The notes under the pieces: generated by a model
The model's input: the letters and a program-made list of their open reading frames with translations, nothing else
Told to the model about the DNA's origin: nothing
The model's database searches: none
Part shown: piece by piece, positions 17,979 to 32,728 of the stretch
Position numbering within the stretch: position 1 is the first letter of the stretch
How the letters are laid out: every line of letters starts with the position of its first letter
Made by a program: the position numbers and the translations under genes
Assembly (NCBI RefSeq): GCF_001005315.1
Contig: NZ_LBMG01000002.1
Span: 1-64,000 of the forward strand
Reading direction: 5' to 3'
Source: Kordia jejudonensis
GTDB taxonomy: Bacteria; Bacteroidota; Bacteroidia; Flavobacteriales; Flavobacteriaceae
Length of the DNA: 64,000 nt

Positions 17979-18138
17979 AAAGCGACTGCCTGAAAAGCTA
18001 AATTTTCGTCAAATTGAACTTGATTCAATTTCTCATAACCATTGAAAATCAATACAATGATACTCAGAATTGATGCTGAATCAAGTTCAGCACATATTCA
18101 GAATGACGCTTTTTTTATACTTATTAGACAGCCGCTTT
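17979..18138 (+). repeat. Dispersed structured repeat, copy A
   Basis: About 160 bp with outer inverted arms (AAAGCGACTGCCTGAAAAG and CTTATTAGACAGCCGCTTT region). The interior closely matches the copies at 21376 and 29095 (shared GCTAAATTTTCGT, GAACTTGATTC, ATTGAAAATCA, AATGACG). Its first internal hairpin is TTGAA-CTTGA-TTCAA, whereas the others have CCGAA-CTTGA-TTCGG, a paired change on both arms. It lies between convergent genes, lspA and the peptide gene at 18175, so it may also terminate transcription. Confidence 0.85.
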
Positions 18139-18174: not shown

Positions 18175-18378
18175 TTATAGAGGAACACTTTCACATTCAC
18201 TAGGAAGTGCACCATTCATATCTCTTGATGTATGTGGTTGGTGAGTTTGACAATCAATCGCATCCGTTAATGCGTCTTTTGGACAAAACCAAGTATATCC
18301 TGGTAAACCGCCTTTAATTGTTAAATTAGAAATTGACTTTTTGTTTAATGTCAAACTGGTTAACTGCCTTTTTTTCAT
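18175..18378 (-). CDS. Small double-glycine leader peptide
   Basis: 67 residues: leader MKKRQLTSLTLNKKSISNL, then TIKGGLPGY with Gly-Gly at residues 23-24, then a core with three Cys (WFCPKDALTDAIDC and SECES). The leader matches the plus-strand peptides at 18607, 18990 and 19308. It is the only one of this group on the minus strand. Likely an exported or modified peptide; modification machinery is not in the window. The palindrome at 18533 is 154 bp from its start and faces the other way, so its own promoter is not identified. Confidence 0.65.
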   Translation of the reverse strand: MKKRQLTSLTLNKKSISNLTIKGGLPGYTWFCPKDALTDAIDCQTHQPHTSRDMNGALPSECESVPL

Positions 18379-18532: not shown

Positions 18533-18547
18533 TACGGTATTCCCATA
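18533..18547 (+). promoter_or_regulatory. TACGG-N5-CCRTA palindrome, site 1 (before peptide 18607)
   Basis: TACGGTATTCCCATA. A TATTTTGA box begins exactly 22 bp after it, and the start codon lies 59 bp after it. It is one of five equally placed sites in the window. Confidence 0.7.
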
Positions 18548-18606
18548 AACAATTGTCATTCTGTTTTTATATTTTGAAAGTATTATAAACCAAAATACTT
18601 TTAATC

Positions 18607-18846
18607 ATGAAAAAAAGAAGCACTAAATCGTTGAAACTTCGCAAAAATTCTATTTCACATTTAAACCATGATCAAATACATGGTGGTCAACTTATACAAA
18701 TTACAAAAATTAATGTCTGCGGCTCACAAATTGACGCTTGTCCGTCTGCGCTTAGTTGTACGTTTTTCCCAACATGTCAGACATTAAACAATACATGTCC
18801 AACATTTAATTACGTATGCCAATCATTGGTAGAATGTCCGATATAA
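18607..18846 (+). CDS. Small Cys-rich double-glycine leader peptide
   Basis: 79 residues. Leader MKKRSTKSLKLRKNSISHL with Gly-Gly at residues 26-27 (QIHGGQ). The core has nine Cys, many in 'CP' or 'TC' contexts: QIDACPSALSC, PTCQTL, NTCPTF, YVCQSL, VECPI. The DxCP[ST]A motif is shared with the next two peptides (18990, 19308). The high Thr/Ser/Cys content would suit lanthionine formation, but this is only compatible, not shown. It has its own palindrome-linked promoter at 18533. Confidence 0.72.
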   Translation: MKKRSTKSLKLRKNSISHLNHDQIHGGQLIQITKINVCGSQIDACPSALSCTFFPTCQTLNNTCPTFNYVCQSLVECPI

Positions 18847-18913
18847 ACAACTTAGATAAGTATAAAAAATTAACGAATTGTTCTTTTCATTCAATGAAGA
18901 GTTTCCAATAATT

Positions 18914-18928
18914 TACGGTATTCCCGTA
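18914..18928 (+). promoter_or_regulatory. TACGG-N5-CCGTA palindrome, site 2 (before peptide 18990)
   Basis: TACGGTATTCCCGTA, with perfect outer arms. TAATTTAA begins exactly 22 bp after it and the ATG is 61 bp after it. The sequence is nearly the same as site 1 (one base different). Confidence 0.75.
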
Positions 18929-18989
18929 CTTATATCGTAGTTGATTTTTATAATTTAATACTTGCAATAAACTTAAAACATTATAAATT

Positions 18990-19190
18990 ATGAAAAAAAG
19001 AAGTGTAAAATCATTAAAACTTGGCAAAAGTTCAGTTTCCAAATTAGGAAATCAACAAATTAAAGGAGGAACTTTACAAACAACTTCCGTAATTATTACA
19101 AAAACAGGTTGTACCTCATTTATTGATGCTTGTCCTACAGCTTGGTGTCCACCAACAGTAGATCCAAAAACATGTCCTTTTCCATATTAA
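18990..19190 (+). CDS. Small double-glycine leader peptide
   Basis: 66 residues: leader MKKRSVKSLKLGKSSVSKL, Gly-Gly at residues 26-27 (QIKGGT), and a core with four Cys (KTGCTSFIDACPTAWCPPT, KTCPFPY). The DACPTAWCP segment aligns with DNCPSAWVCP of the 19308 gene and DACPSALSC of the 18607 gene, so the three are paralogues. The palindrome promoter at 18914 drives it. The next peptide gene starts 117 bp later without its own palindrome and may share this transcript. Confidence 0.72.
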   Translation: MKKRSVKSLKLGKSSVSKLGNQQIKGGTLQTTSVIITKTGCTSFIDACPTAWCPPTVDPKTCPFPY

Positions 19191-19307
19191 GAATTGTTTA
19201 CCAAAATCTGTTTGAAATGAAAGTTGAACTATTATAAACCAGCTTTGCGCCAAATGGATTTGATACATTTTTACAAACATTCCTATAAATTTTAAAAATA
19301 TAAAATC

Positions 19308-19487
19308 ATGAAAAAAAGAAATGTAAAATCATTAAAGCTTCGTAAAAATTCTATTTCTAATCTGGAAAACAGAAAGCTTACAGGTGGTCTAAAATTAACA
19401 GATACGTGTACGTCTGTTGTTGATAATTGTCCGTCTGCTTGGGTTTGTCCAACCGACATTCCGTTTCTTTGCAATCTTCCTTTTTAG
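19308..19487 (+). CDS. Small double-glycine leader peptide (59 residues)
   Basis: 59 residues, ATG 19308 to TAG 19485-19487. Leader MKKRNVKSLKLRKNSISNL, Gly-Gly at residues 26-27 (KLTGGL), core with four Cys (TDTCTS, DNCPSAWVCPT, FLCNLPF). It closely resembles the preceding two genes, showing local duplication. No TACGG palindrome lies in the 117 bp before it. A good terminator follows at 19505. Confidence 0.7.
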   Translation: MKKRNVKSLKLRKNSISNLENRKLTGGLKLTDTCTSVVDNCPSAWVCPTDIPFLCNLPF

Positions 19488-19504
19488 GAAAAGAAATTGA
19501 TAAG

Positions 19505-19543
19505 AAAAAGAGGAGCAAATGTATATTTGTTCCTCTTTTTTTT
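19505..19543 (+). terminator. Terminator of the leader-peptide cluster
   Basis: AAGAGGAGCAAAT pairs with ATTTGTTCCTCTT (one mismatch), then a T-run of eight. Confidence 0.85.
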
Positions 19544-19756
19544 ATAGAAAAATGTACGTGTTTAGTGCGAATCAATTCTCCTAGTCTTCATCACAAATAC
19601 TATATTTTTTTCATTATATCAATACCTTTGATGATCTCTTTGTTTACCGTTAGTATAGTACCTAGACTAATATCGATCGTTAAAAACAGGTATTTTTACC
19701 GAGATATGTTTGATAAATTATCTATACATTTGAAAACTAACCAAATACTAATCATT

Positions 19757-21340
19757 ATGAAGAATTTATTTTTTAAAGGCTTATCGCTCGTCTTAGTTTT
19801 AGCGTTTGTTACGGTTTCCTGCGAAGAAAAAAAAGAGAAAGGAAAATATACAACGACAACTGATGATGTAGAAACCGCTTCGGCGCAACTTGTTATGAAC
19901 ACTCCCATAAACACTAAACTTCCTGCCGATGTATTACAATCGTGTACAGTAAGTAGTTCAGATTTTAGTTCTTGGTTTGCTTCTGCAACTGTTTCTAAGG
20001 ATGGTGCTGTAAATGCTGCCAATTCTGTAACTGCCGTACATGAAAATAATTGTGATTTTTACAAATGGTCTGAACAAATGTTTTTGTGGGTTACGTCCCC
20101 AAATACCTCAGGCGATTATAGTAGTGGAACTGTGATGGAATCAAGTAGCTTTTATACCGTATCTACCGTTAATAACGATACACGTACGTTAATACCTCAT
20201 GAAACAGGAAAACTCATAACTGCAGTAGCTAATGCTCAAAAAAATGACAGACTGTTTGCTGATACGGAAGAAGGACAAGCTACAGATGATGTATTGATGG
20301 CTCAAAATGGTTCACTTATTTATTATATAAGTATGGTAAATGATGTGTATGCGCAATACTTGAATGGTGTTGCAAATAGTGGAGGAAGCGTAAGTGGAAG
20401 CGAATTCCCTACAACTCAAGATCAACTAAATACAATTATTGATTTTGCAAAAACACAAGGAATTACGGTAAAAGATCCTAATACCTTAACAATGGAAATT
20501 AAAACTTCGTGGGTAGATGCCAGTGAATTAACGAATGTTAGTGATTATATTACCATGAATGCTATTGTTCCGACATATGATACAAGTGATGATATGAAAT
20601 GGGTTCCAAATGGTTCAGCGCAAAAAAAGTTAGCGATGATAGGAATCCATATTGTAGGAACCATTGATGGACATCCTGAAATGGTTTGGGCAACTTTTGA
20701 ACATGTCAATAATGCACCTAATTTGGAATATACATATTTAGATACATCAAGTACTACGAAAACACAACCAGCGGATACTGGAAATGATTGGTTATTGAAT
20801 GGCGATAGCGCAAGTGCAACCTACAATCAATCACATATGAAGTATTGTAATGAAAACGAATTAAAAGCAAAGAGTTGTGATGAACTTAATACTATTTTTG
20901 CAAGTTCAGGCAATACTATTAGCGCAAGTAATACCAAAATGACAAAACCTTGGGGAGTTGCTAATGAAGGCGCGCCTAATCCTGAAAATAGTTCTCCAGC
21001 TGCATCGAACAGTGAAGTAATTTCTATGAATAATAGTGTTTTAGGAAAATTAGCTGAAGGTGATTTACGTAAAAACTACATTTTTATTGGAGCTACTTGG
21101 ACAGATAGCGGAGCAGCACCAACTGGAGAAAGTTATTCTACAGCAAATTCAGGTTCTGGTGTGGCTATAGGAACGAGTCAATTAGCAAATAGCACTATGG
21201 AAACGTATGCACAAAACGGCGCTGGATATGCGCAATATGGAAGCTGTTTTAGTTGTCACTCAAATTTTTCTAGCCCAGGTTTAACGCCTTCGGACTTAAG
21301 TCACATATATGCAGAATTACTAAAAGGAGAAACTAAATAA
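19757..21340 (+). CDS. Lipoprotein with a C-terminal CxxCH haem-binding motif
   Basis: 527 residues from the ATG at 19757. A longer in-frame reading back to 19427 would overlap the peptide gene and lacks a signal peptide, so it is rejected. The lipoprotein signal is LVLVLAFVTVSCEE (lipid Cys about residue 21). The body matches no family I can name. Near the end, GSCFSCHSNF is a single c-type haem motif. This suggests a cell-surface or periplasmic electron-transfer or oxidoreductase protein (inference). A TACATTTG box at 19726-19733 fits the -7 consensus. Confidence 0.75.
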   Translation: MKNLFFKGLSLVLVLAFVTVSCEEKKEKGKYTTTTDDVETASAQLVMNTPINTKLPADVLQSCTVSSSDFSSWFASATVSKDGAVNAANSVTAVHENNCDFYKWSEQMFLWVTSPNTSGDYSSGTVMESSSFYTVSTVNNDTRTLIPHETGKLITAVANAQKNDRLFADTEEGQATDDVLMAQNGSLIYYISMVNDVYAQYLNGVANSGGSVSGSEFPTTQDQLNTIIDFAKTQGITVKDPNTLTMEIKTSWVDASELTNVSDYITMNAIVPTYDTSDDMKWVPNGSAQKKLAMIGIHIVGTIDGHPEMVWATFEHVNNAPNLEYTYLDTSSTTKTQPADTGNDWLLNGDSASATYNQSHMKYCNENELKAKSCDELNTIFASSGNTISASNTKMTKPWGVANEGAPNPENSSPAASNSEVISMNNSVLGKLAEGDLRKNYIFIGATWTDSGAAPTGESYSTANSGSGVAIGTSQLANSTMETYAQNGAGYAQYGSCFSCHSNFSSPGLTPSDLSHIYAELLKGETK

Positions 21341-21375
21341 TAATTTTTATTTTGAAGTAAATTTTTAAATACATA

Positions 21376-21512
21376 AAAAAGGCGGTCTAAAAAGCTAAAT
21401 TTTCGTCAAGCCGAACTTGATTCGGTTTCTCAAAATCATTGAAAATCAGTGTAATGAGATTCTGAATTGAATTCAGAATGACGCTTTTGTATACTTTTTA
21501 GACCGCCTTTTT
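21376..21512 (+). repeat. Dispersed structured repeat, copy B
   Basis: About 137 bp. The outer arms GGCGGTCTAAAAAG and CTTTTTAGACCGCC pair perfectly over 14 bp with A and T runs outside. Inside are CCGAA-CTTGA-TTCGG and CTGAA-TTGAA-TTCAG hairpins and a CGTCA/TGACG pair. Located between convergent genes (19757 and 21520), it probably doubles as a bidirectional terminator. Confidence 0.88.
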
Positions 21513-21519
21513 ACTTATT

Positions 21520-22800
21520 TTATTGCTTATATATTTTTCCGTCTTTCATCACAAATACGACATTTTCCATCGTGTTGATGTTCTGCGTAGGATCGTCATT
21601 AACAGCAACAATATCAGCTAAAAATCCTGCTTTTAACTTTCCTAGTTCATCTTCCATTCCTAGAATTTTTGCATTCGTTACCGTTGCAGATTGAATGGTT
21701 TCCATAGCTGGCATTCCAGCTTCTACCATAAAACCAAATTCTTTTCCATTGAGTCCATGTTCATATACTCCAGCGTCCGTTCCAAAAGCGATTCCAACAC
21801 CTTTTTTGTAAGCTTTGGCAAATGTTCCTTGAATTTTAGGTCCAACTTCTAACGCTTTTGGTACAATGATATCTGGATAATACCCTTTTATTTTTGCTTT
21901 TGCAGCCACTTCTTTTCCTGCGGTAATGGTTGGAACTAAATACGCATCATATTTTTTCATGAGTTCCATCGTTTCGTCACTCATTAAAGTTCCATGCTCA
22001 ATGGTTTTTACACCACCAATAATAGCGCGTTGCATGCCTTCATCTCCATGTGCGTGCGCTGCAATATGCATTCCATAATCTTTTGCAGTTTCACAAATCA
22101 CTTTGATTTCTTCTACTGTAAATTGTGGATTGCTTCCACTTTTCGCAACACTTAACACGCCACCAGTAGCCGTAATTTTAATGACATCAGCACCATTTTT
22201 ATAACGTTGACGCACTGCTTTTTTTGCATCACTTACATTGTTTACCACACCTTCTTTTGGTCCTGGATCGCCAATAATTTCTTTTCGGTTTCCATTGGTT
22301 GGATCAGCGTGTCCACCAGTTGTAGCTAGTGCTTTTCCTGCGGTAAAAATTCGTGGACCAACTATTTTTCCTTGCGCAATAGCATTTCGCAATGATATAT
22401 TGATTCCTGTTCCTCCCAAATCGCGCACAGTAGTAAAACCTGCTTGTAACGTTGCGTTTGCAAAACCAACGGATCGAAATGCTACATCGGCATCATTTAA
22501 GGTATATTTTTCTATGTATGCTTTCGGATTGGTTTCACTTTCAATATGAACGTGCATGTCTATTAATCCTGGCATGACCGTTTTCGATTTTAAATCGATA
22601 ACAATAGCTGTTGAATTTTCAGGATTTACATACCCATTTTGAATTCGTGTAATCTTGTTTCCAGAAACAACAATTGTTTTTTCCGTGAGTACTTTTCCAT
22701 TTTCTGTATCAATGATTTTCCCACAATGAATATATGTCTCTTGTGCCAATGCAATGGTAGAACACATTATTCCTAGGAATAGTATGAGTAGTTTTTTCAT
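21520..22800 (-). CDS. Exported amidohydrolase-superfamily metal-dependent hydrolase
   Basis: 426 residues. A signal peptide (1-19, ending IALAQ) precedes the amidohydrolase fold: MPGLIDMHVHIES gives the first metal His pair, HIAAHAHGDEGM and TIEHGTLMSDE supply further His ligands, and FGTDAGVYEHG the Asp. The C-terminal KLKAGFLADIVAVNDDP strand is typical of imidazolonepropionase-like or Xaa-Pro dipeptidase-labelled members. It probably hydrolyses a cyclic amide or dipeptide in the periplasm; the substrate is not predictable. It lies downstream of galE with a 19-bp gap. Confidence 0.88.
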   Translation of the reverse strand: MKKLLILFLGIMCSTIALAQETYIHCGKIIDTENGKVLTEKTIVVSGNKITRIQNGYVNPENSTAIVIDLKSKTVMPGLIDMHVHIESETNPKAYIEKYTLNDADVAFRSVGFANATLQAGFTTVRDLGGTGINISLRNAIAQGKIVGPRIFTAGKALATTGGHADPTNGNRKEIIGDPGPKEGVVNNVSDAKKAVRQRYKNGADVIKITATGGVLSVAKSGSNPQFTVEEIKVICETAKDYGMHIAAHAHGDEGMQRAIIGGVKTIEHGTLMSDETMELMKKYDAYLVPTITAGKEVAAKAKIKGYYPDIIVPKALEVGPKIQGTFAKAYKKGVGIAFGTDAGVYEHGLNGKEFGFMVEAGMPAMETIQSATVTNAKILGMEDELGKLKAGFLADIVAVNDDPTQNINTMENVVFVMKDGKIYKQ

Positions 22801-22819
22801 CTAATTGTATTTATGGTTG

Positions 22820-23845
22820 TTATTTGGTTTTTCGTATTTTCTGTTCCCATTGCCAAGCGGAAAGCATAGCTTCATCAAGTGTGGAAGTAGCTTTCCAACC
22901 TAGAATTGTATTTGCTTTTGTCGTATCTGCATATGCAGAAATTACATCTCCTTCTCTCCTATCTACTATTTTATAGTTTAATTTTTGCTGGCTTACACGC
23001 TCAAAACTTTCAATAACTTCTAATACAGAACTTCCTGTTCCTGTTCCGATATTGAATACTTCAAAAGACGTTTCATGCTGTTCATTTAGTAACCTTTTTA
23101 AAGCAATTACATGCGCTTTCGCGAGATCAACCACGTGAATGTAATCACGAATACAGGTTCCATCTTCCGTTGGATAATCGTTTCCAAAAACCGCTAATTG
23201 TTTTCGTAAACCAATTGCCGTTTGTGTGATAAAAGGTACCAAGTTTTGCGGAACACCATCTGGCAATTCGCCAATAGCAACACTTGCATGTGCGCCAATT
23301 GGATTGAAGTATCGCAAAGAAATTACTTGTAAACCTTTGGCAATTTTGGCAGTGTCTTGCAATATTTCTTCTCCGATTTGTTTGGTATTCCCGTAAGGAG
23401 AAAATGCTTGTTGAATTGGCGCATTTTCCGAAATCGGCATTTTTTCGGCTTGACCGTATACCGTACACGAAGAACTAAAAATGAACGCAATATTTTCTTG
23501 ATGCTGAATTTGCTGTAATACCGTTACCAACGTAGAAATATTGTTTTCATAATATAACAACGGATTTTCAACACTTTCGCCAACCGCTTTACTTGCTGCA
23601 AAGTGAATGATTCCTGCGATATTTTGATGTTTTTGAAAGAATGAAATTGTAGCTTGTTTGTCGCGTAAATCTAATTCTTCAAACTCGGGACGAATTCCTG
23701 TTATGCTTTCTATTCCATCTAAAACTTTTACCGAAGCATTTGATAAGTTATCGATAATGATGACTTCAAATCCTGCCGTTTGTAACTCTACAACTGTATG
23801 AGAACCAATGTATCCTAATCCGCCAGTTACTAATATCTTTTTCAA
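22820..23845 (-). CDS. galE: UDP-glucose 4-epimerase
   Basis: 341 residues, a normal length. It interconverts UDP-glucose and UDP-galactose for surface polysaccharides and galactose use. Seen: the NAD-binding VTGGLGYIGSHTVVEL, the catalytic Ser/Tyr region SSSCTVYGQAE...PYGNTKQIGEE, LRYFNPIGAH, and EDGTCIRDYIHVVDLAKAH. The start codon is TTG at 23843-23845, because the family begins exactly at this KKILVTGG and no ATG is near. It follows the DegT aminotransferase on the same strand. Confidence 0.94.
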   Translation of the reverse strand: MKKILVTGGLGYIGSHTVVELQTAGFEVIIIDNLSNASVKVLDGIESITGIRPEFEELDLRDKQATISFFQKHQNIAGIIHFAASKAVGESVENPLLYYENNISTLVTVLQQIQHQENIAFIFSSSCTVYGQAEKMPISENAPIQQAFSPYGNTKQIGEEILQDTAKIAKGLQVISLRYFNPIGAHASVAIGELPDGVPQNLVPFITQTAIGLRKQLAVFGNDYPTEDGTCIRDYIHVVDLAKAHVIALKRLLNEQHETSFEVFNIGTGTGSSVLEVIESFERVSQQKLNYKIVDRREGDVISAYADTTKANTILGWKATSTLDEAMLSAWQWEQKIRKTK

Positions 23846-23903
23846 ACTTATCTGATTTAGGGTTTTTAGGTGTTGGCTGTTAAAAGTTTCTTTTATGTAT
23901 GAA

Positions 23904-25061
23904 TTATCCGTTTACGAAATCTAAGATTGTTTTTGTGATAAATGCTATTTGATCATCTTCCAATTCGGTATGCATTGGCAATGATATTACTTCCTTTACC
24001 AATTGATTCGTCACAGGGAAATCTGCTTCATTGTAACGTTCGTCTTTGTATGCTTTTTGCGCATGTAACGGAATTGGATAGTATACGCCACAAGGAATTC
24101 CATTGTCGTTTAAATGCTTCACCAACGCATCTCTATCCACATCAACAACACGTAAAGTATATTGATGAAATACATGACAGTTGCATCCAGTACAGATAGG
24201 ATTTTCGCATGATTTCGAGATTTGTGGTGTCACAATTTTATCGTTTCCAGCAAACGCTGTATTGTATTTGCGAGCTGCATTTTGACGAGCTGCATTGTAT
24301 GCGTCTAAGTTGGGAAGTTTTGCACGTAATATAGTTGCTTGGATAGAATCTAATCGAGAATTTACACCAACTACATCATGATGGTAACGTTTGTACATTC
24401 CGTGATTTACAATTCCTCTGATGGTATGTGCTAAATCGTCATCGTTGGTAAAGATAGCACCGCCATCGCCGTAACAACCTAAGTTTTTTGAAGGAAAGAA
24501 TGAAGTTGAAGCTACATGACCAATTCCACCTGCTTTTTTGACACTTCCATCAGCAAATGTATAGCTTGCGCCAATCGCCTGCGCGTTATCTTCAATGACG
24601 TATAAGTTGTGTTCTTTGGCAATTTCTTGAATGGCATCCATATTGGCACATTGTCCAAATAAATGTACAGGAACAATGGCTTTTGTTTTTGGTGTGATCG
24701 CGTTACGAATGGCAGCTGGATCAATGTTGAACGAATCTTTTTCCACATCCACTAACACAGGAGTTAATTGCAATAATGCGATTACCTCAACGGTAGCAGC
24801 AAAAGTAAAATCGGCAGTAATGACTTCATCGCCTGGTTTTAGTCCAAGTCCCATCATCGCAATTTGCAATGCGTCAGTTCCGTTGGCACATGGAATTACG
24901 TGTTTTACGTCTAAATATGCTTCTAATTCTTTTTGAAATGCGTGTACTTCAGGTCCGTTTATGAATGCAGATGACTCAATTACATCTAATACGGATTGAT
25001 CAACTTGGTCTTTTATTTTTGCGTATTGACCTTTTAGGTCGACCATTTGGATTTTCTTCAT
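23904..25061 (-). CDS. DegT/DnrJ/EryC1/StrS family PLP-dependent sugar aminotransferase
   Basis: 385 residues. This family aminates keto-sugar nucleotides for LPS, capsule or glycan synthesis. Seen: CANGTDALQIAM (PLP phosphate site), DNAQAIGAS, and FFPSKNLGCYGDGGA with the Schiff-base Lys. Unusual for the wider family is the cysteine run CENPICTGCNCHVF near residue 285, which could be a metal site, though I recall similar runs in flavobacterial relatives. With galE downstream and the Kdo transferase divergent, the block fits LPS/surface glycan assembly. Confidence 0.9.
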   Translation of the reverse strand: MKKIQMVDLKGQYAKIKDQVDQSVLDVIESSAFINGPEVHAFQKELEAYLDVKHVIPCANGTDALQIAMMGLGLKPGDEVITADFTFAATVEVIALLQLTPVLVDVEKDSFNIDPAAIRNAITPKTKAIVPVHLFGQCANMDAIQEIAKEHNLYVIEDNAQAIGASYTFADGSVKKAGGIGHVASTSFFPSKNLGCYGDGGAIFTNDDDLAHTIRGIVNHGMYKRYHHDVVGVNSRLDSIQATILRAKLPNLDAYNAARQNAARKYNTAFAGNDKIVTPQISKSCENPICTGCNCHVFHQYTLRVVDVDRDALVKHLNDNGIPCGVYYPIPLHAQKAYKDERYNEADFPVTNQLVKEVISLPMHTELEDDQIAFITKTILDFVNG

Positions 25062-25159
25062 TCGTATCTTTCTTTTGTTCTAACAATATTACAAAATTGT
25101 ACAACGATACCCAATGAATTTAAGTGAAAGAATGTATTTTAGCATCAAACTTTTGTCAT

Positions 25160-26398
25160 TTGTATTTTATCTATAACATATTAATCTACATTACGGGGTT
25201 CTTCCTAAATATAGTTGCACTATTTCATAAAAAACTTGGACTTTTTGTGACTGGACGAAAGACGGTTTTTGAAACTTTAGCAAACCAAATTGAAACTACA
25301 GACAACGTTATTTGGTTTCACACAGCTTCTTTGGGCGAATATGAACAAGGTTTGCCTGTTTTAGAAGCTTTGAAAAAGCAATATCCAACACACAAATTTG
25401 TACTGACATTTTTTTCTCCTTCTGGTTATGAAGTGAAAAAAGATAGTGGCGTTGCAGATGTAATTACCTATTTGCCATTAGATACGAAAGCGAATGCCAA
25501 GCGTTTTTTAGATTTGGTAAAACCAACATTGGTTGTGTTTGTGAAGTATGAGTTTTGGCCAAATTATTTAGCGGAGTTAAAGAAGCGTACGATTCACACC
25601 ATTTCTATTTCTACTATTTTTAGGCCTTCTCAGGTGTTTTTTAAATCGTATGGTGGCTGGATGCGAAAGTCGTTGCATGCGTTTAACCATATTTTTGTAC
25701 AGGATGAAGCTTCAAAAAAGTTGCTTTTATCTATTAATTATACAACTGTAACAGTTAGTGGCGACACACGTTTTGACAGGGTTTTAGAGATTTTAGAACG
25801 TGATAATTCGTTGCCGTTTGTAGCAGATTTTAAAGGAAATTCAACGTGTATTGTGATTGGAAGTAGTTGGCAAGAAGATGAAGCTATTTTTGTGCCTTTT
25901 ATCAATTCGTCTCCCAATGATTGTAAATATATTATTGCGCCGCATAACATTAAACAACAAGAAATTCTGAAACTGAAACAAAGCATTACCAAATCTACTG
26001 TATTGTTTTCAGAAATGGAACAGCATGAAAATTTGAATCAGTTTGATGTGTTTATTGTAGATACAATTGGAATTTTGACTAAAATTTATAGTTATGCAGA
26101 TATTGCTTATGTTGGTGGCGGCATGGGAACTACAGGATTGCACAACACGCTAGAACCTGCCGTTTTTGGAATTCCGGTTGTGATTGGCAAAACGTATGCT
26201 GGATTTAAGGAAGCTGAAGATTTGGTACAACTTGGTGGTATTATTTCTGTGAAGCATCAAGATGAGTTTGCAAATACGATGACACGTTTGCTTACAGATA
26301 CAGATTTTAATGAAGAAGTTAGTAACATCAACCACAACTATGTTCATTCTCATGGAAATGCTAGTGAAATTATCATGAATTATCTATCTAAATTTTAA
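25160..26398 (+). CDS. waaA: 3-deoxy-D-manno-octulosonic acid (Kdo) transferase
   Basis: About 412 residues. It adds Kdo to lipid A precursor at the inner membrane. Seen: an N-terminal membrane anchor (FIYNILIYITGFFLNIVAL), the VIWFHTASLGEYEQGLPV region with the catalytic Glu, FFSPSGYEV, IGSSWQEDE (nucleotide site), and YVGGGMGTTGLHNTLEPAVFG near the C-terminus. No ATG exists in the first 150 residues. The relatives start near YFIYN, favouring the TTG at 25160; a GTG at 25124 directly after an in-frame stop is the alternative and would add 12 residues. Confidence 0.92.
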   Translation: MYFIYNILIYITGFFLNIVALFHKKLGLFVTGRKTVFETLANQIETTDNVIWFHTASLGEYEQGLPVLEALKKQYPTHKFVLTFFSPSGYEVKKDSGVADVITYLPLDTKANAKRFLDLVKPTLVVFVKYEFWPNYLAELKKRTIHTISISTIFRPSQVFFKSYGGWMRKSLHAFNHIFVQDEASKKLLLSINYTTVTVSGDTRFDRVLEILERDNSLPFVADFKGNSTCIVIGSSWQEDEAIFVPFINSSPNDCKYIIAPHNIKQQEILKLKQSITKSTVLFSEMEQHENLNQFDVFIVDTIGILTKIYSYADIAYVGGGMGTTGLHNTLEPAVFGIPVVIGKTYAGFKEAEDLVQLGGIISVKHQDEFANTMTRLLTDTDFNEEVSNINHNYVHSHGNASEIIMNYLSKF

Positions 26399-26535
26399 GA
26401 TATCTTCAAAAAGTTACCTTTTATCTATAAAATTGACAATTTTACAGTGTGTTAAAAAGATGTTAAAGCATTCTTTGTTTATCCGTAAAAGAAATCTTAA
26501 CATTGTTGTACAATTAACAATAAATAAGATCAGAG

Positions 26536-26925
26536 ATGAAAAAAGTAATTTTAAAAGTAGCACTTGCAGTTGCATTGGTATTTGGTGTAACTTCATGTGA
26601 AGAAGTGAAGAAAAAGACAGACGAAGCTGCTGAAAAAACGGAAGCTGCTGCAAAAAAAGCTGGAGAAGAAATTGAAGAAGCTGCCGAAGCTACAAAAGAA
26701 GCCGTAAAAGAAACAGCAAAGGATATTGAAGAAGCAGCAAAAGATGCAAAAGATGCTACTGAAAAAGCGGTAAATGATGCTGTTGATGGAGCAAAAGAAA
26801 CTGCTAAAGATGTAAAAGAAAGTGCTGAAAAAGGCGCTGAAAATGTAAAAGATGCAGCAAATAAAGCTGTGGAAGATACGAAGAAAGCTGCTAGTGACTT
26901 GAAACAAAAAGCTACAGAAAACTAA
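26536..26925 (+). CDS. Small lipoprotein with LEA-like Ala/Lys/Glu repeats
   Basis: 129 residues. Signal peptide VALAVALVFGVTSCEE has a lipobox (lipid Cys about residue 21). The remainder is a low-complexity amphipathic helix of roughly 11-residue repeats rich in Ala, Glu, Lys and Thr (KETAKDIEEAAKDAKDATEK), like late embryogenesis abundant or apolipoprotein-type helices. A stress-related, membrane-associated or spacer role is inference; compositional bias makes homology searches unreliable. It has its own terminator at 26953. Confidence 0.75.
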   Translation: MKKVILKVALAVALVFGVTSCEEVKKKTDEAAEKTEAAAKKAGEEIEEAAEATKEAVKETAKDIEEAAKDAKDATEKAVNDAVDGAKETAKDVKESAEKGAENVKDAANKAVEDTKKAASDLKQKATEN

Positions 26926-26952
26926 GCATAACTTAGTTATTTTATAAAAGAT

Positions 26953-26983
26953 AAAAGCTTCTCCAATTGGAGAAGCTTTTTTT
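26953..26983 (+). terminator. Terminator after the LEA-like lipoprotein
   Basis: AAAAGCTTCTCC pairs with GGAGAAGCTTTT, followed by T-run. The stem is palindromic and strong. Confidence 0.9.
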
Positions 26984-26993
26984 ATGTTTTATA

Positions 26994-27179
26994 CTATTTT
27001 AAGGGTTCTGTACAATAATTTCTACATGTATTATTTGTTAAATCTGTACAGTTTTCGCAAGAATATAAAGGACAAGAAAAAGTATCTGTATCTAAATTCA
27101 AACCACCACCTCTTTTGTTTTCAAGGTTAGAGATTGATTTTTTATTCAATGCTAAACTTTTGAAATTCTTTTTTTTCAT
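26994..27179 (-). CDS. Small double-glycine leader peptide
   Basis: 61 residues: leader MKKKNFKSLALNKKSISNL, then NKRGGGL (Gly residues 24-26), then a core with six Cys (FSCPLYSCENCTDL, NTCRNYC). It is of the same type as the 18-19 kb group but 7 kb away. On the minus strand, TAGATTTG at 27210-27217 matches the -7 box, 31 bp before the ATG. A TACG-N4-CGTA motif at 27266 has different spacing from the five regulated palindromes and is not counted with them. Confidence 0.7.
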   Translation of the reverse strand: MKKKNFKSLALNKKSISNLENKRGGGLNLDTDTFSCPLYSCENCTDLTNNTCRNYCTEPLK

Positions 27180-27209
27180 AATTTACTATTTTATAATTAA
27201 ACAATGACC

Positions 27210-27217
27210 CAAATCTA
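27210..27217 (-). promoter_or_regulatory. Candidate -7 box of the peptide gene at 26994
   Basis: Minus-strand TAGATTTG is an exact TAnnTTTG. A TTTG 15 bp further upstream is closer than the usual spacing, so this is tentative. Confidence 0.4.
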
Positions 27218-27327
27218 TGGTGTAAATCTATCCAAAAAAAGGAATATGAGTCGCTATTTATATATTACGAGTCCGTAACATTAAGTCATGCTTATGATTT
27301 ATAAATTGCAAGTGTTTGTGAAAAATT

Positions 27328-27367
27328 AAAACAGCAACTAATACACGATCAGTTGCTGTTTTTTTTA
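27328..27367 (-). terminator. Terminator of the first S74/T9SS gene
   Basis: AAAACAGCAACT pairs with AGTTGCTGTTTT with A and T runs on both sides. It lies 34 bp past the stop at 27401. Confidence 0.8.
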
Positions 27368-27400
27368 TTATTTAGTATGTACGATATGGTAAATTTGAGC

Positions 27401-28900
27401 TTATTTGATAATCATTTTTCTAGTCACTTTGATTTCTCCGTTAGAAGTTAAGCTGTAGATAAACATTCCTCTTCCAATTTCATTTGAGTTGATACTTACT
27501 TGTCCTTTTTCACCAGATATATTGTAATCTCTGATAAATTTACCTGTCATATCAAAAACAGAAATTGTTGCTTCTGTACTGCTTGGCAAAGTATAGTTAA
27601 TTACTGTTCTACTTGTAAAAGGATTTGGTCTGTTTTGATCCATAGAGAAACCTACATCTTCAAGACCTTCTACCGTTCCTTTCTTTTCTATAGCGTTGCC
27701 ATTTTTTAGTGCTTCTAGTTCATTTTCTAATGAAGCTACTTTTTCGTTCATTTCATTTAAACTTGATGTCAAAATTGAAATTAATCCAACATAGTTTACG
27801 GCTTTGTATTCAAATGTACCAGCTTCTTTTTCATCTTTCCCAATAATTGGTCTGTTGATCGTTGTTACCAATTCAGGAAATACTTCTTCAATGTTTTGAG
27901 CGATGAATCCGTGTTGTACTTCAGAAGGTAAGTTTAAATGATCATTTTCTTTAAATGTATATGTAACTGCATCTAACTGTGCTAACTTGTCTAATACATT
28001 TTCTTCATTTTGAATATTTTCTTTTAACTTTCTATCAGAAGCTGTAAATGTTCCTGTTACGGTAACATTTCCATTAAAATATCCTGCAAAACGGTTTGTT
28101 GTTGTTGGAGAGCTTCCATAAATAGCTGCACCAAAACCAGTAGGATTACTTACAATACTTCCAATAAATCCTTGAACACCATAGGTACTTCCGTTAGAAC
28201 TACCTGTTACTCTTGCACGTACTCCTGTACTTTGAAATGCATCACTTACATTTACATTGACACCTGTATCACTGTAAGCTCCTCCTTTGTGATTTACATC
28301 GACACCTGTTTTTATGTAGCCCGAAAGCAGATTGATAGCTTTCATTTCTGTAAAGTAACTACCTGTTGTAGTATTGTTTCGTACAATGAAACCTGTTTTA
28401 GTACTACTTCCTGTCAAAGTACTGTAATCGATACCAACCATTGGTTCGTTGGAAGCTAGTGGTTTTCCAAAAAATGTTCTCCCATCAAAAGTCATGGTTG
28501 CATTTAACGTAGATGATGTTGAAGTAAAACTTGTAGCAGATCGAAACTCTAAGTTACTCTTCGTAGTATCTCCAATCCATTGAATTCTCGGATTATCGTC
28601 ACCTACATCTTGATATCCCATAGTTAACGCTCTATTTTTTAACTGAAAACGCAATCCGAATACTTCTTGAGTTCCCGTGTTGAGTTTACCTATAGAAAAC
28701 CACTGACTCGAATTGAAGTCAAATGCTGTTCCCGCATCTAATTGTGTTACCAAACCTGGTCGGAATCTAAAAATTTCCTGTCCGCTAAATTGTTGTGGAA
28801 TCGGATTGAAAATTGAAGAAAACACAGATCCTGATGATTGGTTTTGCGCAAAAGTTATTCCCGCAAAGAGTAAGGCTAATAGTAAAGTAATTTTTTTCAT
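27401..28900 (-). CDS. T9SS-exported tail-fibre-like protein with S74 chaperone domain (1 of 3)
   Basis: 499 residues from the ATG at 28898-28900; an upstream in-frame start at 28954 would put 18 residues before the clear signal peptide KKITLLLALLFAGITFAQ. The N-terminal region (30-280) holds repeated short beta motifs such as GSSNGSTYGVQGF and AAIYGSSPTTTNRFAGYFNG. TASDRKLKENI (about 287) opens the peptidase S74 / intramolecular chaperone of endosialidase domain, which includes QHGFIAQNIEEVFPELV. A short coiled coil follows, and the last 85 residues (NRPNPFTSRTVINY...) are a T9SS sorting domain. Probably a surface adhesin or fibre. Confidence 0.88.
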   Translation of the reverse strand: MKKITLLLALLFAGITFAQNQSSGSVFSSIFNPIPQQFSGQEIFRFRPGLVTQLDAGTAFDFNSSQWFSIGKLNTGTQEVFGLRFQLKNRALTMGYQDVGDDNPRIQWIGDTTKSNLEFRSATSFTSTSSTLNATMTFDGRTFFGKPLASNEPMVGIDYSTLTGSSTKTGFIVRNNTTTGSYFTEMKAINLLSGYIKTGVDVNHKGGAYSDTGVNVNVSDAFQSTGVRARVTGSSNGSTYGVQGFIGSIVSNPTGFGAAIYGSSPTTTNRFAGYFNGNVTVTGTFTASDRKLKENIQNEENVLDKLAQLDAVTYTFKENDHLNLPSEVQHGFIAQNIEEVFPELVTTINRPIIGKDEKEAGTFEYKAVNYVGLISILTSSLNEMNEKVASLENELEALKNGNAIEKKGTVEGLEDVGFSMDQNRPNPFTSRTVINYTLPSSTEATISVFDMTGKFIRDYNISGEKGQVSINSNEIGRGMFIYSLTSNGEIKVTRKMIIK

Positions 28901-28957
28901 GGTTAAATAATTTTTGATTAGTTTGTTTAAATATATTTCTAAAACATTAAACACAAT

Positions 28958-28972
28958 TACGGTTTAACCGTA
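28958..28972 (-). promoter_or_regulatory. TACGG-N5-CCGTA palindrome, site 3 (first S74 gene)
   Basis: TACGGTTTAACCGTA has perfect arms. On the minus strand TATATTTA (28928-28935) begins exactly 22 bp after it, with the ATG 57 bp away. Confidence 0.75.
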
Positions 28973-29094
28973 AAAATGACTCTGTATCAGATAATTATGA
29001 TTTTTTTAACATGCTGAAGTTTTTCGTAAAATGATAAAAAAGGAAGCGCTATCGTATGATTTGAAAGGATTTTTTAAAAAAAGTATTGTATTGA

Positions 29095-29241
29095 AAAGAG
29101 GCTTTCTAAAAAGTATAAAAAACGTCATTCTGAACTTGATTCAGTATCAATTCAGCATCTCATTACACTGATTTTCAATGGATATGAGAAACCGAATCAA
29201 GTTCGGCTTAACGAAAATTTAGCTTTTCAGGCAACCTCTTC
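29095..29241 (-). repeat. Dispersed structured repeat, copy C
   Basis: About 147 bp on the minus strand. Its reverse complement matches copy B (GCTAAATTTTCGTTAAGCCGAACTTG region) and copy A. It keeps CCGAA-CTTGA-TTCGG and CTGAATCAAGTTCAG hairpins. The outer arms (GAGGTTGCCTGAAAAG / CTTTTTAGAAAGCCTC) pair less well than in copy B. Confidence 0.85.
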
Positions 29242-29273
29242 AATTTTTATAGTACGTTTTTATTAAATAAAAA

Positions 29274-30857
29274 TTATCGGACAATCATCTTTTTAGAAAT
29301 GATTATTTCATTGTCTGAGATTAAGGTATAGATAAATATTCCTTTCCCTATATCGCTTGAATTGATCGTCAATTGCCCTTTTTCATCAGATAGATTGTAT
29401 TCTTTGATAAACTTCCCTGATAAATCGACAACTGCAATTGTTGCTTTTGTATTACTAGGCAATCTGTAGTTTATAACGGACTGATTTGTAAACGGATTTG
29501 GTTTATTTTGCTCCATGGAAAAACCTGAATCGATAGTATCATCTAGATTGTCTAAATCGCCTTTATCCGTAAGTCCAACTTCCCTTCTCATGTCTTCTAA
29601 CTGACTTTCTAGCGTTGCTACTTTTTCATTTAATTCTTCAATATTGGCTGTTGATTTTTCATTTAACTCTTTGATACTTGACGTTAAGATTGAAATAAGT
29701 CCTGTATAGTTTACCGCTTTGTACTCGTATATTCCAGCCGGTTTATTGTCTTTATCCATAATAGGCTTTTGAATCGTTGTTACCAATTCAGGATATACTT
29801 CTTCAAGGTTTTGTGCCAAAAATCCGTGCTGTAAGTCACTTGAAAGATGCAATTGATCATTTGATTTAAATGTGTAGGTAACCGCATTTAACTGTGCTAA
29901 TTTTTCCAACACATTGCTTTCGTCTTTAATATTGTCTTTTAATTTTTCATCAGAAGATGTAAATGTTCCTGTTACAAAAACATTTCCATTAAAATAACCT
30001 GCAAATCGATTGGAGTCTGTTGCTGAAGTACCATAAATAGCGGCGCCAAAAGCAGGATTTTTCACATCAGCGGTACTTGATACGGATCCAAAAACACCAT
30101 ATGTTGGACCATCACTACCATTATCAGTTACAAGTGCTCTTACACCTGTATTCTGAGTTCCTCCATCTAAACGCACATTAATTCCAGTATTATCGAAGCT
30201 AGAACCCGTAGTACTTTCAATATCTAAACCTACTTTACTAAAGCCTCCAGCATTGTTTATGGATCGTATTCCTGTCATAAAAGCACCATTTTGACTCGCA
30301 TCGGTTTCTAAAGTTAAACCCACACGCGAAGAAGCGCCACTGACTACTGTATAATCAATACTAACTTTTGTATCAAATGCAGATAATGGATCTCCAAAAT
30401 ACGTTCTTCCATCATTTGTCATCGTTGCTACGAGTGTAGAACTAGTAGATGTAAAACTGTTTGCAGCTCTAAATTCTAAAGAAGTTGTTGAAGCATTGGC
30501 ATTGCCAACCCATTGAATTCTTGGGTTTATATCACTTAAATCTTGATATCCCATAGTTAATGCTTTGTTTGGCAATTGAAAACGTAAGCCATATACATTT
30601 TGACTTCCCGTGTTTAGTCTTCCGATAGAAAACCATCTACTATTTGTAAAACCAAAGCTCGTCCCTGAATCTAGTTGAGTTACTAAACCAGGTCTGAATC
30701 TAAAAATTTCTCCTGTTCCAAATTGTTGTGGTATTGGATTGTTGATGGTTGATTGTACGGGATCAAAAGATTGATTCCGAGGAACAGGCTGTGCTATAAT
30801 TTGCGAAAAACAAATTGTAGTAATAAATAATGCAAAAAGTAATGTAATTTTTTTCAT
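29274..30857 (-). CDS. T9SS-exported tail-fibre-like protein with S74 chaperone domain (2 of 3)
   Basis: 527 residues with signal peptide KKITLLFALFITTICFSQ. The architecture is that of the neighbour at 27401: a conserved N-terminal part (IFRFRPGLVTQLDSGTSFGF, RLNTGSQNVYGLRFQLPNK), a divergent middle, TSSDEKLKDNI opening the S74 domain, LQHGFLAQNLEEVYPELV, a longer coiled coil (ELNEKSTANIEELNEKVATL), and a T9SS sorting domain (NKPNPFTNQSVINYRLP). The S74 catalytic-type Ser-Asp and His are present. Middle regions differ strongly between the three copies while both ends are conserved, suggesting diversification of exposed parts. Confidence 0.88.
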   Translation of the reverse strand: MKKITLLFALFITTICFSQIIAQPVPRNQSFDPVQSTINNPIPQQFGTGEIFRFRPGLVTQLDSGTSFGFTNSRWFSIGRLNTGSQNVYGLRFQLPNKALTMGYQDLSDINPRIQWVGNANASTTSLEFRAANSFTSTSSTLVATMTNDGRTYFGDPLSAFDTKVSIDYTVVSGASSRVGLTLETDASQNGAFMTGIRSINNAGGFSKVGLDIESTTGSSFDNTGINVRLDGGTQNTGVRALVTDNGSDGPTYGVFGSVSSTADVKNPAFGAAIYGTSATDSNRFAGYFNGNVFVTGTFTSSDEKLKDNIKDESNVLEKLAQLNAVTYTFKSNDQLHLSSDLQHGFLAQNLEEVYPELVTTIQKPIMDKDNKPAGIYEYKAVNYTGLISILTSSIKELNEKSTANIEELNEKVATLESQLEDMRREVGLTDKGDLDNLDDTIDSGFSMEQNKPNPFTNQSVINYRLPSNTKATIAVVDLSGKFIKEYNLSDEKGQLTINSSDIGKGIFIYTLISDNEIIISKKMIVR

Positions 30858-30916
30858 AAGTTGATGTATTTTTTGGTTAACATGTTTAAATGTAGACTCA
30901 AAAAACTAAACAATAG

Positions 30917-30931
30917 TATGGGATAACCGTA
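30917..30931 (-). promoter_or_regulatory. TACGG-N5-CCATA palindrome, site 4 (second S74 gene)
   Basis: On the minus strand TACGGTTATCCCATA. TACATTTA (30887-30894) begins exactly 22 bp after it and the ATG is 59 bp away. Confidence 0.75.
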
Positions 30932-31020
30932 AAATTAAACCATTAATAATCAGTATTTTATAAATAAATTATTTCATTAATGACATAACAATTGCAGAAA
31001 TATTGCTGATATAACTACAT

Positions 31021-31062
31021 AAAAAAGCCGAAGTTGTTGTTTAACTTCGGCTTTCGTTTTTT
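31021..31062 (-). terminator. Terminator of the third S74 gene
   Basis: AAAGCCGAAGTT pairs with AACTTCGGCTTT. Read on the minus strand it ends in a T-run. A near copy is at 32843. Confidence 0.8.
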
Positions 31063-31084
31063 ATTCTTACATACATGAATAAAA

Positions 31085-32656
31085 TTATCGAATAATCATC
31101 TTTTTAGAAATGATTACTTCATTCCCTGAGATTAATGTATAAATAAATATTCCTTTTCCAATATCGCTTGAATTGATAATCAATTGCCCTTTTTCATTAG
31201 CTAATTCATATTCTTTAACAAACTTTCCTGATAAGTCTACAACAGCAATCGACGCTTTAGTATCGCTTGGCAACCTGTAGTTGATTACAGACTGATCTGT
31301 AAAAGGATTTGGTTTGTTTTGCTCCATTAAGAAACCACCATCTATAGTACCTTCATCATCTTCTACTTTAGATTTTTCATTAGATTGTGCTTCGTATCTT
31401 AAATCTGCCAATTCACTTTTTAACAACGTCATTTCTTCGTTCATTTCTTTTAAACTAGATGTCAAAATTGAAATCATTCCAATATAGTTTACAGATTTAT
31501 ATTCATATATACCTAGCTCTTTATTATTTTCATCCAAAATAGGCTTCTTAATTGTAGATACTAATTCTGGAAAAACTTCTTCAACATTTTGAGCGATGAA
31601 TCCGTGTTGTAAATTTGAAGGAAGATTTAATTGATCATTTGGTTTAAATGTATAATTAACAGCATCTAACTGAGTTAATTTTTCCAACATATTTTCTTCA
31701 ACCTTAATATCATTTTTCAGTTTTCTATCTGAACCTGAAGAAAATGATCCTGTTACTACTACATTTCCTGCAAAATAACCTGCATATCTGTTTGTCGTTG
31801 CTGCTGAACTACCATATATACCTGCTCCAAAACCAGTAGGTGTTACACCACTAGGTCCAGTAACAGATCCTCGTACACCATTAGAGCTACCGCCACTTGC
31901 TTGACTTCGCACAGATGAACTTACTCCTGTATTATAATATCCATCTAACAAGCTAACACTAACACCAGTATTCCCGTAAGAACCACCATCACTTCTAATG
32001 CTCATTCCTGTTTTTATGGTACACGAAACATTGTTGATAGACTTGAAACCCGTAATTGTATAATAATTACTTTCACTTTTACCGTTTTCAACAGTTACAC
32101 CTGTTCTGCTATTGGTAGCAACATCGCTATAATCCACGCCAACTTTTGTTTCACTAGTTGCTAATGGAGATCCAAAAAAGGTATTTCCTTCATTTGTCAT
32201 TGTTGCGACTAATGTAGAATTTGTAGATGTAAAACTATTGGCTACTCTAAATTCAAAATCCGTTCCTACGGAAGAGCCTGCGCCTACCCATTGCAGTCTA
32301 GGATTTGTATCGTTAATATCTTGATATCCCATAGTTAATGCTCTATTTGGCAATTGAAAACGCAAACCGTATACATTCTGACTTCCCGTATTTAGTCTAC
32401 CGATAGAAAACCATCGGCTATTGGTAAAACCAAAACTACTTCCAGAATCTAACTGTGTTACCAAACCTGGTCTGAATCTGAAAATTTCCCCTGTACCAAA
32501 TTGCTGCCCTATGGGAAAATTAATTGACGAACTAACACTTCCAAAAGACTGGTTAAACCCAAGCAATATAGGTGTCGGCGAAGGTGCTGGAATAGGTGTT
32601 TGAGCAAAAGAAATTGCTGTAAAAAAAGAGATTAAAATAAACGTAATTTTTTTCAT
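31085..32656 (-). CDS. T9SS-exported tail-fibre-like protein with S74 chaperone domain (3 of 3)
   Basis: 523 residues from the ATG at 32654-32656 (signal peptide KKITFILISFFTAISFAQ); the longer in-frame reading to 32710 is rejected for the same reason as in its paralogue. It contains IFRFRPGLVTQLDSGSSFGF, a Gly/Ser-rich middle (SQASGGSSNGVRGSVTGPSG), SSGSDRKLKNDI and LQHGFIAQNVEEVFPELV of the S74 domain, and the T9SS sorting domain NKPNPFTDQSVINYRLP. Compared with copy 2, the ends are almost the same and the middle is changed. The group of three is probably the product of tandem duplication. Confidence 0.88.
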   Translation of the reverse strand: MKKITFILISFFTAISFAQTPIPAPSPTPILLGFNQSFGSVSSSINFPIGQQFGTGEIFRFRPGLVTQLDSGSSFGFTNSRWFSIGRLNTGSQNVYGLRFQLPNRALTMGYQDINDTNPRLQWVGAGSSVGTDFEFRVANSFTSTNSTLVATMTNEGNTFFGSPLATSETKVGVDYSDVATNSRTGVTVENGKSESNYYTITGFKSINNVSCTIKTGMSIRSDGGSYGNTGVSVSLLDGYYNTGVSSSVRSQASGGSSNGVRGSVTGPSGVTPTGFGAGIYGSSAATTNRYAGYFAGNVVVTGSFSSGSDRKLKNDIKVEENMLEKLTQLDAVNYTFKPNDQLNLPSNLQHGFIAQNVEEVFPELVSTIKKPILDENNKELGIYEYKSVNYIGMISILTSSLKEMNEEMTLLKSELADLRYEAQSNEKSKVEDDEGTIDGGFLMEQNKPNPFTDQSVINYRLPSDTKASIAVVDLSGKFVKEYELANEKGQLIINSSDIGKGIFIYTLISGNEVIISKKMIIR

Positions 32657-32713
32657 GGTTAATTGTTTTGAATTAATTTTGTTTAAAAATAATCTCAAAA
32701 AGTTAAACAAAAT

Positions 32714-32728
32714 TACGGGATAACCGTA
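32714..32728 (-). promoter_or_regulatory. TACGG-N5-CCGTA palindrome, site 5 (third S74 gene)
   Basis: TACGGTTATCCCGTA on the minus strand has perfect outer arms. TATTTTTA (32684-32691) begins exactly 22 bp after it and the ATG is 57 bp away. Confidence 0.78.

Follow-up and report, generated by a model that had tools for sequence, protein, structure and literature searches.

A palindrome at a fixed distance from the -7 box points to a genus-wide regulon of leader peptides and surface proteins in Kordia

The 64,000-nucleotide stretch of Kordia jejudonensis DNA analysed here (contig NZ_LBMG01000002.1, positions 1 to 64,000; hereafter the window) carries five copies of a short palindrome, each of which lies upstream of a gene for a small leader peptide or a surface protein and is the subject of this study. 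Two copies, TACGGTATTCCCATA (18533..18547) and TACGGTATTCCCGTA (18914..18928), lie on the plus strand and face right; each is followed after 22 bp by a -7 box (TATTTTGA, 18570..18577, and TAATTTAA, 18951..18958) and, after 59 and 61 bp respectively, by the ATG of a peptide gene beginning at 18607 or 18990. The other three, TACGGTTAAACCGTA (28958..28972, as read on the minus strand), TACGGTTATCCCATA (30917..30931) and TACGGTTATCCCGTA (32714..32728), face left on the minus strand, with the boxes TATATTTA (28928..28935), TACATTTA (30887..30894) and TATTTTTA (32684..32691) and with 57, 59 and 57 bp to the ATG of genes encoding proteins with an S74 chaperone domain and a sorting tail of the type IX secretion system (T9SS). 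At 5/5 sites TA[CAT]GG-N5-CC[GAT]TA is separated from TAnnTT by exactly 22 bp. The initial annotation had placed five palindromes here, 57–61 bp before the start codon and exactly 22 bp before TAnnTT, and our scan of the window confirmed this at every site, with each palindrome oriented to its gene and the boxes as it had written them. Its arms, TACGG and CCGTA differing by at most one base, are slightly too narrow, the third arm base being C, A or T genome-wide. When one mismatch to the palindrome was allowed, the window gave six matches against 0.31 expected, a number reached in none of 100 shuffles; the sixth match, at 23444, had not been claimed previously. The S74 sites 30917 and 32714, when read in reverse, have a TAnnTT at 22 bp as well, with no gene in that direction.

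The peptide gene at 18607..18846 (plus strand) encodes a precursor of 79 amino acids (aa) whose leader ends in Gly-Gly (a GG leader) and which matches the NCBIfam model lant_leader_L1a with an E value of 0.00034 and 20.7 bits, under the cut-off of 22 bits; its neighbour at 18990..19190 (plus strand) encodes another GG-leader precursor of that type, 66 aa long. The 59-aa GG-leader precursor encoded at 19308..19487 (plus strand) has no site of its own, and its gene lies 120 bp behind the 18990 gene, with which it is possibly co-transcribed. A fourth, divergent gene at 18175..18378 (minus strand) encodes a 67-aa GG-leader precursor, but its membership of a regulon is doubtful because 154 bp separate it from the palindrome at 18533. 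The S74/T9SS-tail proteins are encoded on the minus strand at 27401..28900, 29274..30857 and 31085..32656, and the last has relatives of 58–77 % identity in four other Kordia genomes, those of K. aestuariivivens, K. periserrulae, an uncultured Kordia and Kordia sp. TARA_039_SRF. In the proteins encoded at 27401–32656 the S74 domain occupies the middle of the protein and is followed by the T9SS tail; S74 domains are usually C-terminal.

Recurrence of the palindrome was examined across the K. jejudonensis genome (5.36 Mb, 217 contigs), using the reversed pattern as control. Exact TACGG-N5-CCGTA was found at 26 places against 2 for the control, and the palindrome followed after 22 bp by TAnnTT, with up to two mismatches, at 98 against 31; for the palindrome alone with up to one mismatch the excess was smaller (129 against 67), so that the loosest counts include many chance matches. 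We read the surroundings of all 26 exact sites, of all palindrome-plus-box matches with no or one mismatch and of some with two, and counted sites as TAHGG-N5-CCDTA. Five one-mismatch sites outside this class (C124:106838, C136:45851, C137:1035, C139:58181 and C181:22734, numbered by contig) were left unclassed; the first of these sits before a leader peptide. Within the stretches read, 108 site-orientations match the class, and 44 of them, spread over 27 contigs, have TAnnTT at 22 bp. These 44 stand before GG-leader peptides in 36 cases and before S74/T9SS genes in three, the remaining five being two S74 sites read in reverse, one site 180 bp from a 379-aa frame and two without a clear gene. 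Thirty-five of the 36 were assigned by a downstream ATG and one, C207:66879, was added from the peptide-based count described below; the leaders at C1:151764 and C157:22235, two of these 36, were called by eye and not by the model. Two further peptides, C138:6325 and C171:339, deviate, with the box either at 23 bp or in a variant form.

The same arrangement extends through the genus. All 11 Kordia genomes (10 besides that of K. jejudonensis) contain exact palindromes, 14–41 per genome against 0–3 for the control; in a comparison covering 99 relatives most non-Kordia genera were near control level, with higher counts in genomes G024 (9 against 0), G048 (8 against 1), G038 and G049 (5 against 1 each). 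The sites read comprised 39 of 41 in K. aestuariivivens (G006), 5 of 27 in Kordia genome G004, 10 of 13 in G048 and G038 together and 8 of 9 in G024. In K. aestuariivivens 27 of the 39 stand before leader peptides, as judged by eye, 25 of them with the box at 22 bp; two others precede S74 homologues, one a lipoprotein-like gene with a box, one has a box and no gene, and eight are of other kinds. With both orientations counted, TAnnTT occurs at 22 bp in 29 of the 39 and at any other offset in seven at most. The K. aestuariivivens relatives of both window peptides retain the site, all five sites read in G004 stand before leaders, and 11 of 12 S74 homologues in other Kordia (loci L214–L219) carry both site and box in front, with substitutions in the palindrome. 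On inspection by eye, we took the sites in G036 and G049 and one of the two in G034 (L238) for probable chance matches.

The initial annotation had suggested that small exported-peptide candidates and three S74/T9SS proteins are under shared control, and had named genome-wide enrichment of the motif as a check. That enrichment was found (26 against 2 exact, 98 against 31 with the box), and recurrence, the fixed 22-bp geometry and the other Kordia genomes together support a shared regulon; what did not survive is its limitation to five promoters, for it is genus-wide. As far as sequence comparison can tell, the evidence supports a membership consisting mostly of putative lanthipeptide-type precursors. 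A literature search confined to open-access PMC found no description naming this regulon.

The leaders fall into two types, with the consensus MKKxNLKSLxLNKKSISxL...GG (type 1, alignment A1) and MLKxILNLxGxxxLxKxxQxxIxGG (type 2, alignment A2). According to the part of PMC7268733 available to us, precursors of Bacteroidetes class I lanthipeptides have an LxLxKx5L leader, often with a Gly-Gly end; the type 1 consensus, and only that of type 1, matches an LxLxKx5L leader ending in GG. Against lanthipeptide membership, four of five type 1 peptides scanned with NF038153 (lant_leader_L1a) scored 14.6–20.7 bits, under the cut-off of 22, and the fifth gave no match; neither of two type 2 peptides scanned was matched. 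In the K. jejudonensis genome we scored 177 leaders, 150 of type 1 (from 348 candidates) and 27 of type 2 (the last few weak), and all peptide fractions given here refer to these 177, one of which, C24:43436, lies outside the sequence read and was counted as site-less. A strict site lies within 220 bp of 37 of them, so that the operator marks a subset; 35 have a site 40–65 bp upstream, and nine more follow in a chain behind a site-bearing peptide. Among the 37, TAnnTT is at offset 22 in 34, and every other offset from 5 to 44 accounts for at most five. A search for a second palindrome before the site-less peptides yielded only low-complexity dyads and ACAA-N5-TTGT (six cases, none with a box). 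The genome has five LanC-like genes over the cut-off, three of them strong, and two C39 matches over the cut-off, one strong and one marginal; with so few for so many leaders, modifying enzymes would be shared. The site-bearing peptides are presumably modified and exported.

A candidate for the regulator came from sister genera. In G024 an exact site lies 48 bp past the stop codon of a response-regulator gene, itself behind a gene for a TPR histidine kinase. Close homologues of this regulator (at least 62 %, full length) were found in nine of the 49 non-Kordia genomes searched, and at all nine loci the dyad is followed by 22 bp, TAnnTT and a conserved stretch of about 100 nucleotides (nt) that includes a hairpin, a loop of sequence ATCCCTC and a terminator with compensatory changes. 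A model of this putative RNA matched 18 of 99 genomes strongly (E at most 1.6e-6). No Kordia genome was among the 18, and of the 49 non-Kordia genomes the model picked out exactly the nine with a regulator homologue. At all 18 RNA loci, nine of which had not been used in building the model, the regulator gene lies immediately upstream and TAnnTT is preceded at 22 bp by a dyad of the form T..GG-N5-CC..A, looser than the Kordia palindrome; this loose form was needed to include loci with TGCGG-N5-CCGCA, TACGG-N5-CCGCA or TGTGG-N5-CCACA. We infer that the RNA of about 100 nt is made in these genera; an Rfam search of nine RNA loci returned no family and one chance match (E 0.96). Among the RNA loci (L242–L250, L280–L297), several show another dyad 22 bp upstream of the first.

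Each of the 11 Kordia genomes encodes one close homologue of this regulator, with 53–54 % identity. That of K. jejudonensis (G000:C163:93491-94162) neighbours a kinase with TPR, HisKA_3 and HATPase domains, matches the receiver family PF00072 and has a predicted structure with a pLDDT of 90.2, to which the closest full-length folds are spr1814, RcsB, LiaR and VraR, all of the NarL family, with a TM score (target) of 0.75 for DNA-bound RcsB. Pfam assigned no DNA-binding domain to the two regulator homologues scanned, so the NarL/LuxR-type DNA-binding assignment rests on the fold. Our current working hypothesis, to which we give a probability of roughly 0.64, is that this NarL-type response regulator, together with its TPR histidine kinase, controls the Kordia regulon, in which case the Kordia homologue would bind the Kordia sites. 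A more tentative proposal, and one that we hold slightly more likely to be wrong than right, is that an old Flavobacteriaceae kinase/regulator pair controlling an adjacent small RNA underlies both arrangements, and that Kordia lost the RNA while the operator spread to dozens of new, scattered lanthipeptide precursors and to surface fibres. If so, a single signal would release surface proteins along with a peptide library of combinatorial character.

A number of observations weigh against the NarL-type regulator or limit the regulon. In none of the 11 Kordia genomes is there a palindrome close to the regulator gene, and none lies within the 11–12 kb around it in the eight Kordia genomes that were read; nor was a convincing RNA found in any Kordia genome when 40 candidates per genome were scored under stricter filters (best E 0.023). 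With neither an adjacent palindrome nor a clear RNA beside the Kordia pair, its role is one that we infer. In an unrooted tree the Kordia regulators form a clade of their own (94/84) outside the RNA-linked clade (83/91), and the recognition-helix letters EKRK, the helix being placed by eye, also occur in some unlinked paralogues. In G025, the tenth non-Kordia genome, a fragment of the regulator (69 %) is present where a contig ends, and the RNA model gave no match; G016, G027 and G029 contain 0, 0 and 1 exact palindromes despite having both regulator and RNA. Outside Kordia, no leader peptide follows any of the eight sites read in G024, four of which have TAnnTT at 22 bp, or any of the ten read in G048 and G038, two of which have it, so that the peptide link is seen only in Kordia. 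Within the genus, 140 of the 177 scored leaders are without a strict site, the motif covering only part of the repertoire; the second S74 gene of L216, one of the 12 homologues, has no site, and the fourth S74 gene of K. jejudonensis itself (G000:C101:33484-33660, L359) has no palindrome. Comparison of recognition helices failed to separate linked from unlinked regulators, and weak RNA matches in Kordia (E 0.02–0.08) had neither regulator nor site at the three loci checked (L299, L301 and L303), a fourth, the second in G008, falling outside that check.

When the regulator is considered, account must be taken of a second candidate, since the regulon and its activator could be real and the protein responsible in Kordia another NarL-type regulator or, for example, one of the TPR-AraC proteins, such as that encoded at G000:C112:85487-87226. 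The gene for this protein lies within a leader-peptide cluster near two palindromes, in G024 a palindrome is found about 400 bp before a TPR-AraC gene, and the proposed NarL-type regulator has no local palindrome linkage in Kordia. On the other side, among the genes examined dyad linkage is conserved only for the NarL-type gene, at 18/18 RNA loci, although other regulators were not searched for in the same way. AraC-type proteins, moreover, usually bind direct or asymmetric repeats and not a symmetric 15-bp dyad. We consider a different regulator unlikely, at perhaps one chance in four, and retain the NarL-type pair as the preferred candidate.

The position of the palindrome bears on its mode of action. 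The sites were compared over 40 that precede either a peptide or an S74 gene. In 40 site promoters, a TTG 17–23 bp before the -7 box is present in three and the final G of a TAnnTTTG box in two, which suggests that the site promoters may depend on an activator, having a weak core and no -33 element. The upstream regions of site-less peptides contain TAnnTTTG within 100 bp in 16 of 138 cases, seven of them with TTG. Class II activator geometry, proposed in the initial annotation, fits these features, and transcription would start about 42 bp from the palindrome centre. A symmetric dyad at a fixed distance would suit any dimeric regulator, and the palindrome could in principle be a repressor operator upstream of a core promoter. 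This we regard as improbable; 37 of the 40 promoters are without the -33 TTG and 38 without the last G of the -7 box, and a centre near -42 is not a usual position for a repressor. Activation is accordingly the mode that we favour over repression, and it is very probable that the regulon exists and has an activator. In our view the regulon is real and spans the genus; its kind, with a dimeric activator in the class II position, is established, and its content is unusual.

Two further explanations can be dealt with briefly. The LytTR response regulator encoded at 40817 lies in the window, 8 kb from the nearest site, but LytTR proteins bind direct repeats and the sites are spread over 27 contigs (no search was made for linkage elsewhere), which makes it a most improbable regulator; the initial annotation had called it only a neighbour, and the regulator now proposed lies on another contig. 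Equally far-fetched is the suggestion that the palindrome is no operator and is conserved only as a piece of a peptide cassette that has moved or been duplicated, for although some adjacent copies have common flanks (C137:69319 and 69676), flanks and spacers otherwise vary while arms and box stay, and the same dyad and spacing precede unrelated S74 genes and, in sister genera, the RNA gene. In 15 register-fixed rows (14 S74, one peptide) per-column identity was 95 % in the arms, 100 % in the box and 52 % in the upstream flank, the first two figures being partly built in because the rows were chosen for having site and box.

We hypothesize that the palindrome acts as an operator for an activator that would bind it as a dimer, with its centre some 42 bp upstream of the start, and would recruit RNA polymerase to -7 boxes lacking a -33 element. 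In Kordia the activator would switch on about 40 dispersed transcription units, nearly all of them putative GG-leader precursors of the lanthipeptide type and a few S74/T9SS surface proteins, so that one signal sensed by the kinase may release modified, exported peptides and surface fibres. In sister genera, a homologous kinase/regulator pair with an adjacent dyad and promoter apparently drives the RNA of about 100 nt.

Several elements of this scheme have counterparts elsewhere. GacS/GacA controls RsmY/RsmZ and RcsB controls RprA; the sister-genus loci suggest the same plan, in which a NarL-type regulator at an upstream site activates a small RNA, and differ in that the kinase has TPR repeats and the RNA no Rfam match, while the Kordia targets are peptide and surface-protein genes with no clear RNA. 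The ComA box is TTGCGG-N4-CCGCAA and the lux box is centred at -42.5: a similar dyad of a NarL/LuxR-type activator serving a peptide regulon, and the same class II position, are seen here, whereas the spacing is N5 instead of N4, the phylum another and the promoter of the -7 type. For the peptides themselves the closest parallels are the prochlorosins and synechococsins, a Nif11 family modified by enzymes of the ProcM group, with 79 putative precursors in SyncM that can be scattered over the genome, as described in the part of PMC10783134 available to us. Many scattered precursors and few shared enzymes would be common to both systems, the Kordia leaders differing in being of the Bacteroidetes class I type and in having a common operator; the word 'promoter' is absent from the main text of PMC10783134. 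Bacteroidetes class I lanthipeptides (NF038153; PMC7268733, available in part) resemble type 1 in the LxLxKx5L leader, often with a Gly-Gly end, and are described there from biosynthetic gene clusters, as opposed to 177 scored leaders and five LanC-like genes, three strong, in K. jejudonensis. Those parts of three Kordia papers that were available (PMC7477175, PMC10734526 and PMC10565126) concern biosynthetic gene clusters or nutrient-dependent algicidal activity and do not mention the regulon.

The question addressed by these findings is how scattered precursor peptides that have few modifying enzymes might be expressed jointly. A short operator flags which of the 177 scored leaders may respond together, links leader peptides with surface proteins of the T9SS and directs attention to a kinase/regulator pair. 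It could provide a switch for silent peptides in Kordia, one species of which is algicidal, and the analysis also uncovers a conserved putative RNA, so far unnamed, in the genomes of 18 relatives.

Some further observations were made on the sites and their surroundings. Two exact palindromes 157 bp apart at G000:C112:84601-84772 have no clear gene behind them and may mark an RNA gene. Among the non-Kordia sites, one in G024 precedes an Rce1-like protein and one a short HlyD-like frame, the latter (L227:5001-10015) being followed by GG peptides and the start of a C39-type ABC transporter, all named by eye. In four non-Kordia genera (L229, L230, L236 and L237) a gene for a membrane-protein-like product of about 182 aa, for which no Pfam match was obtained in the one scanned, lies about 190 bp behind an exact palindrome. 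Finally, two intergenic stretches of the window, 18000-18115 and 29130-29240, were noticed by eye to be alike (gaacttgattc...tttctcata...ccattgaaaatca) and lie on opposite strands.

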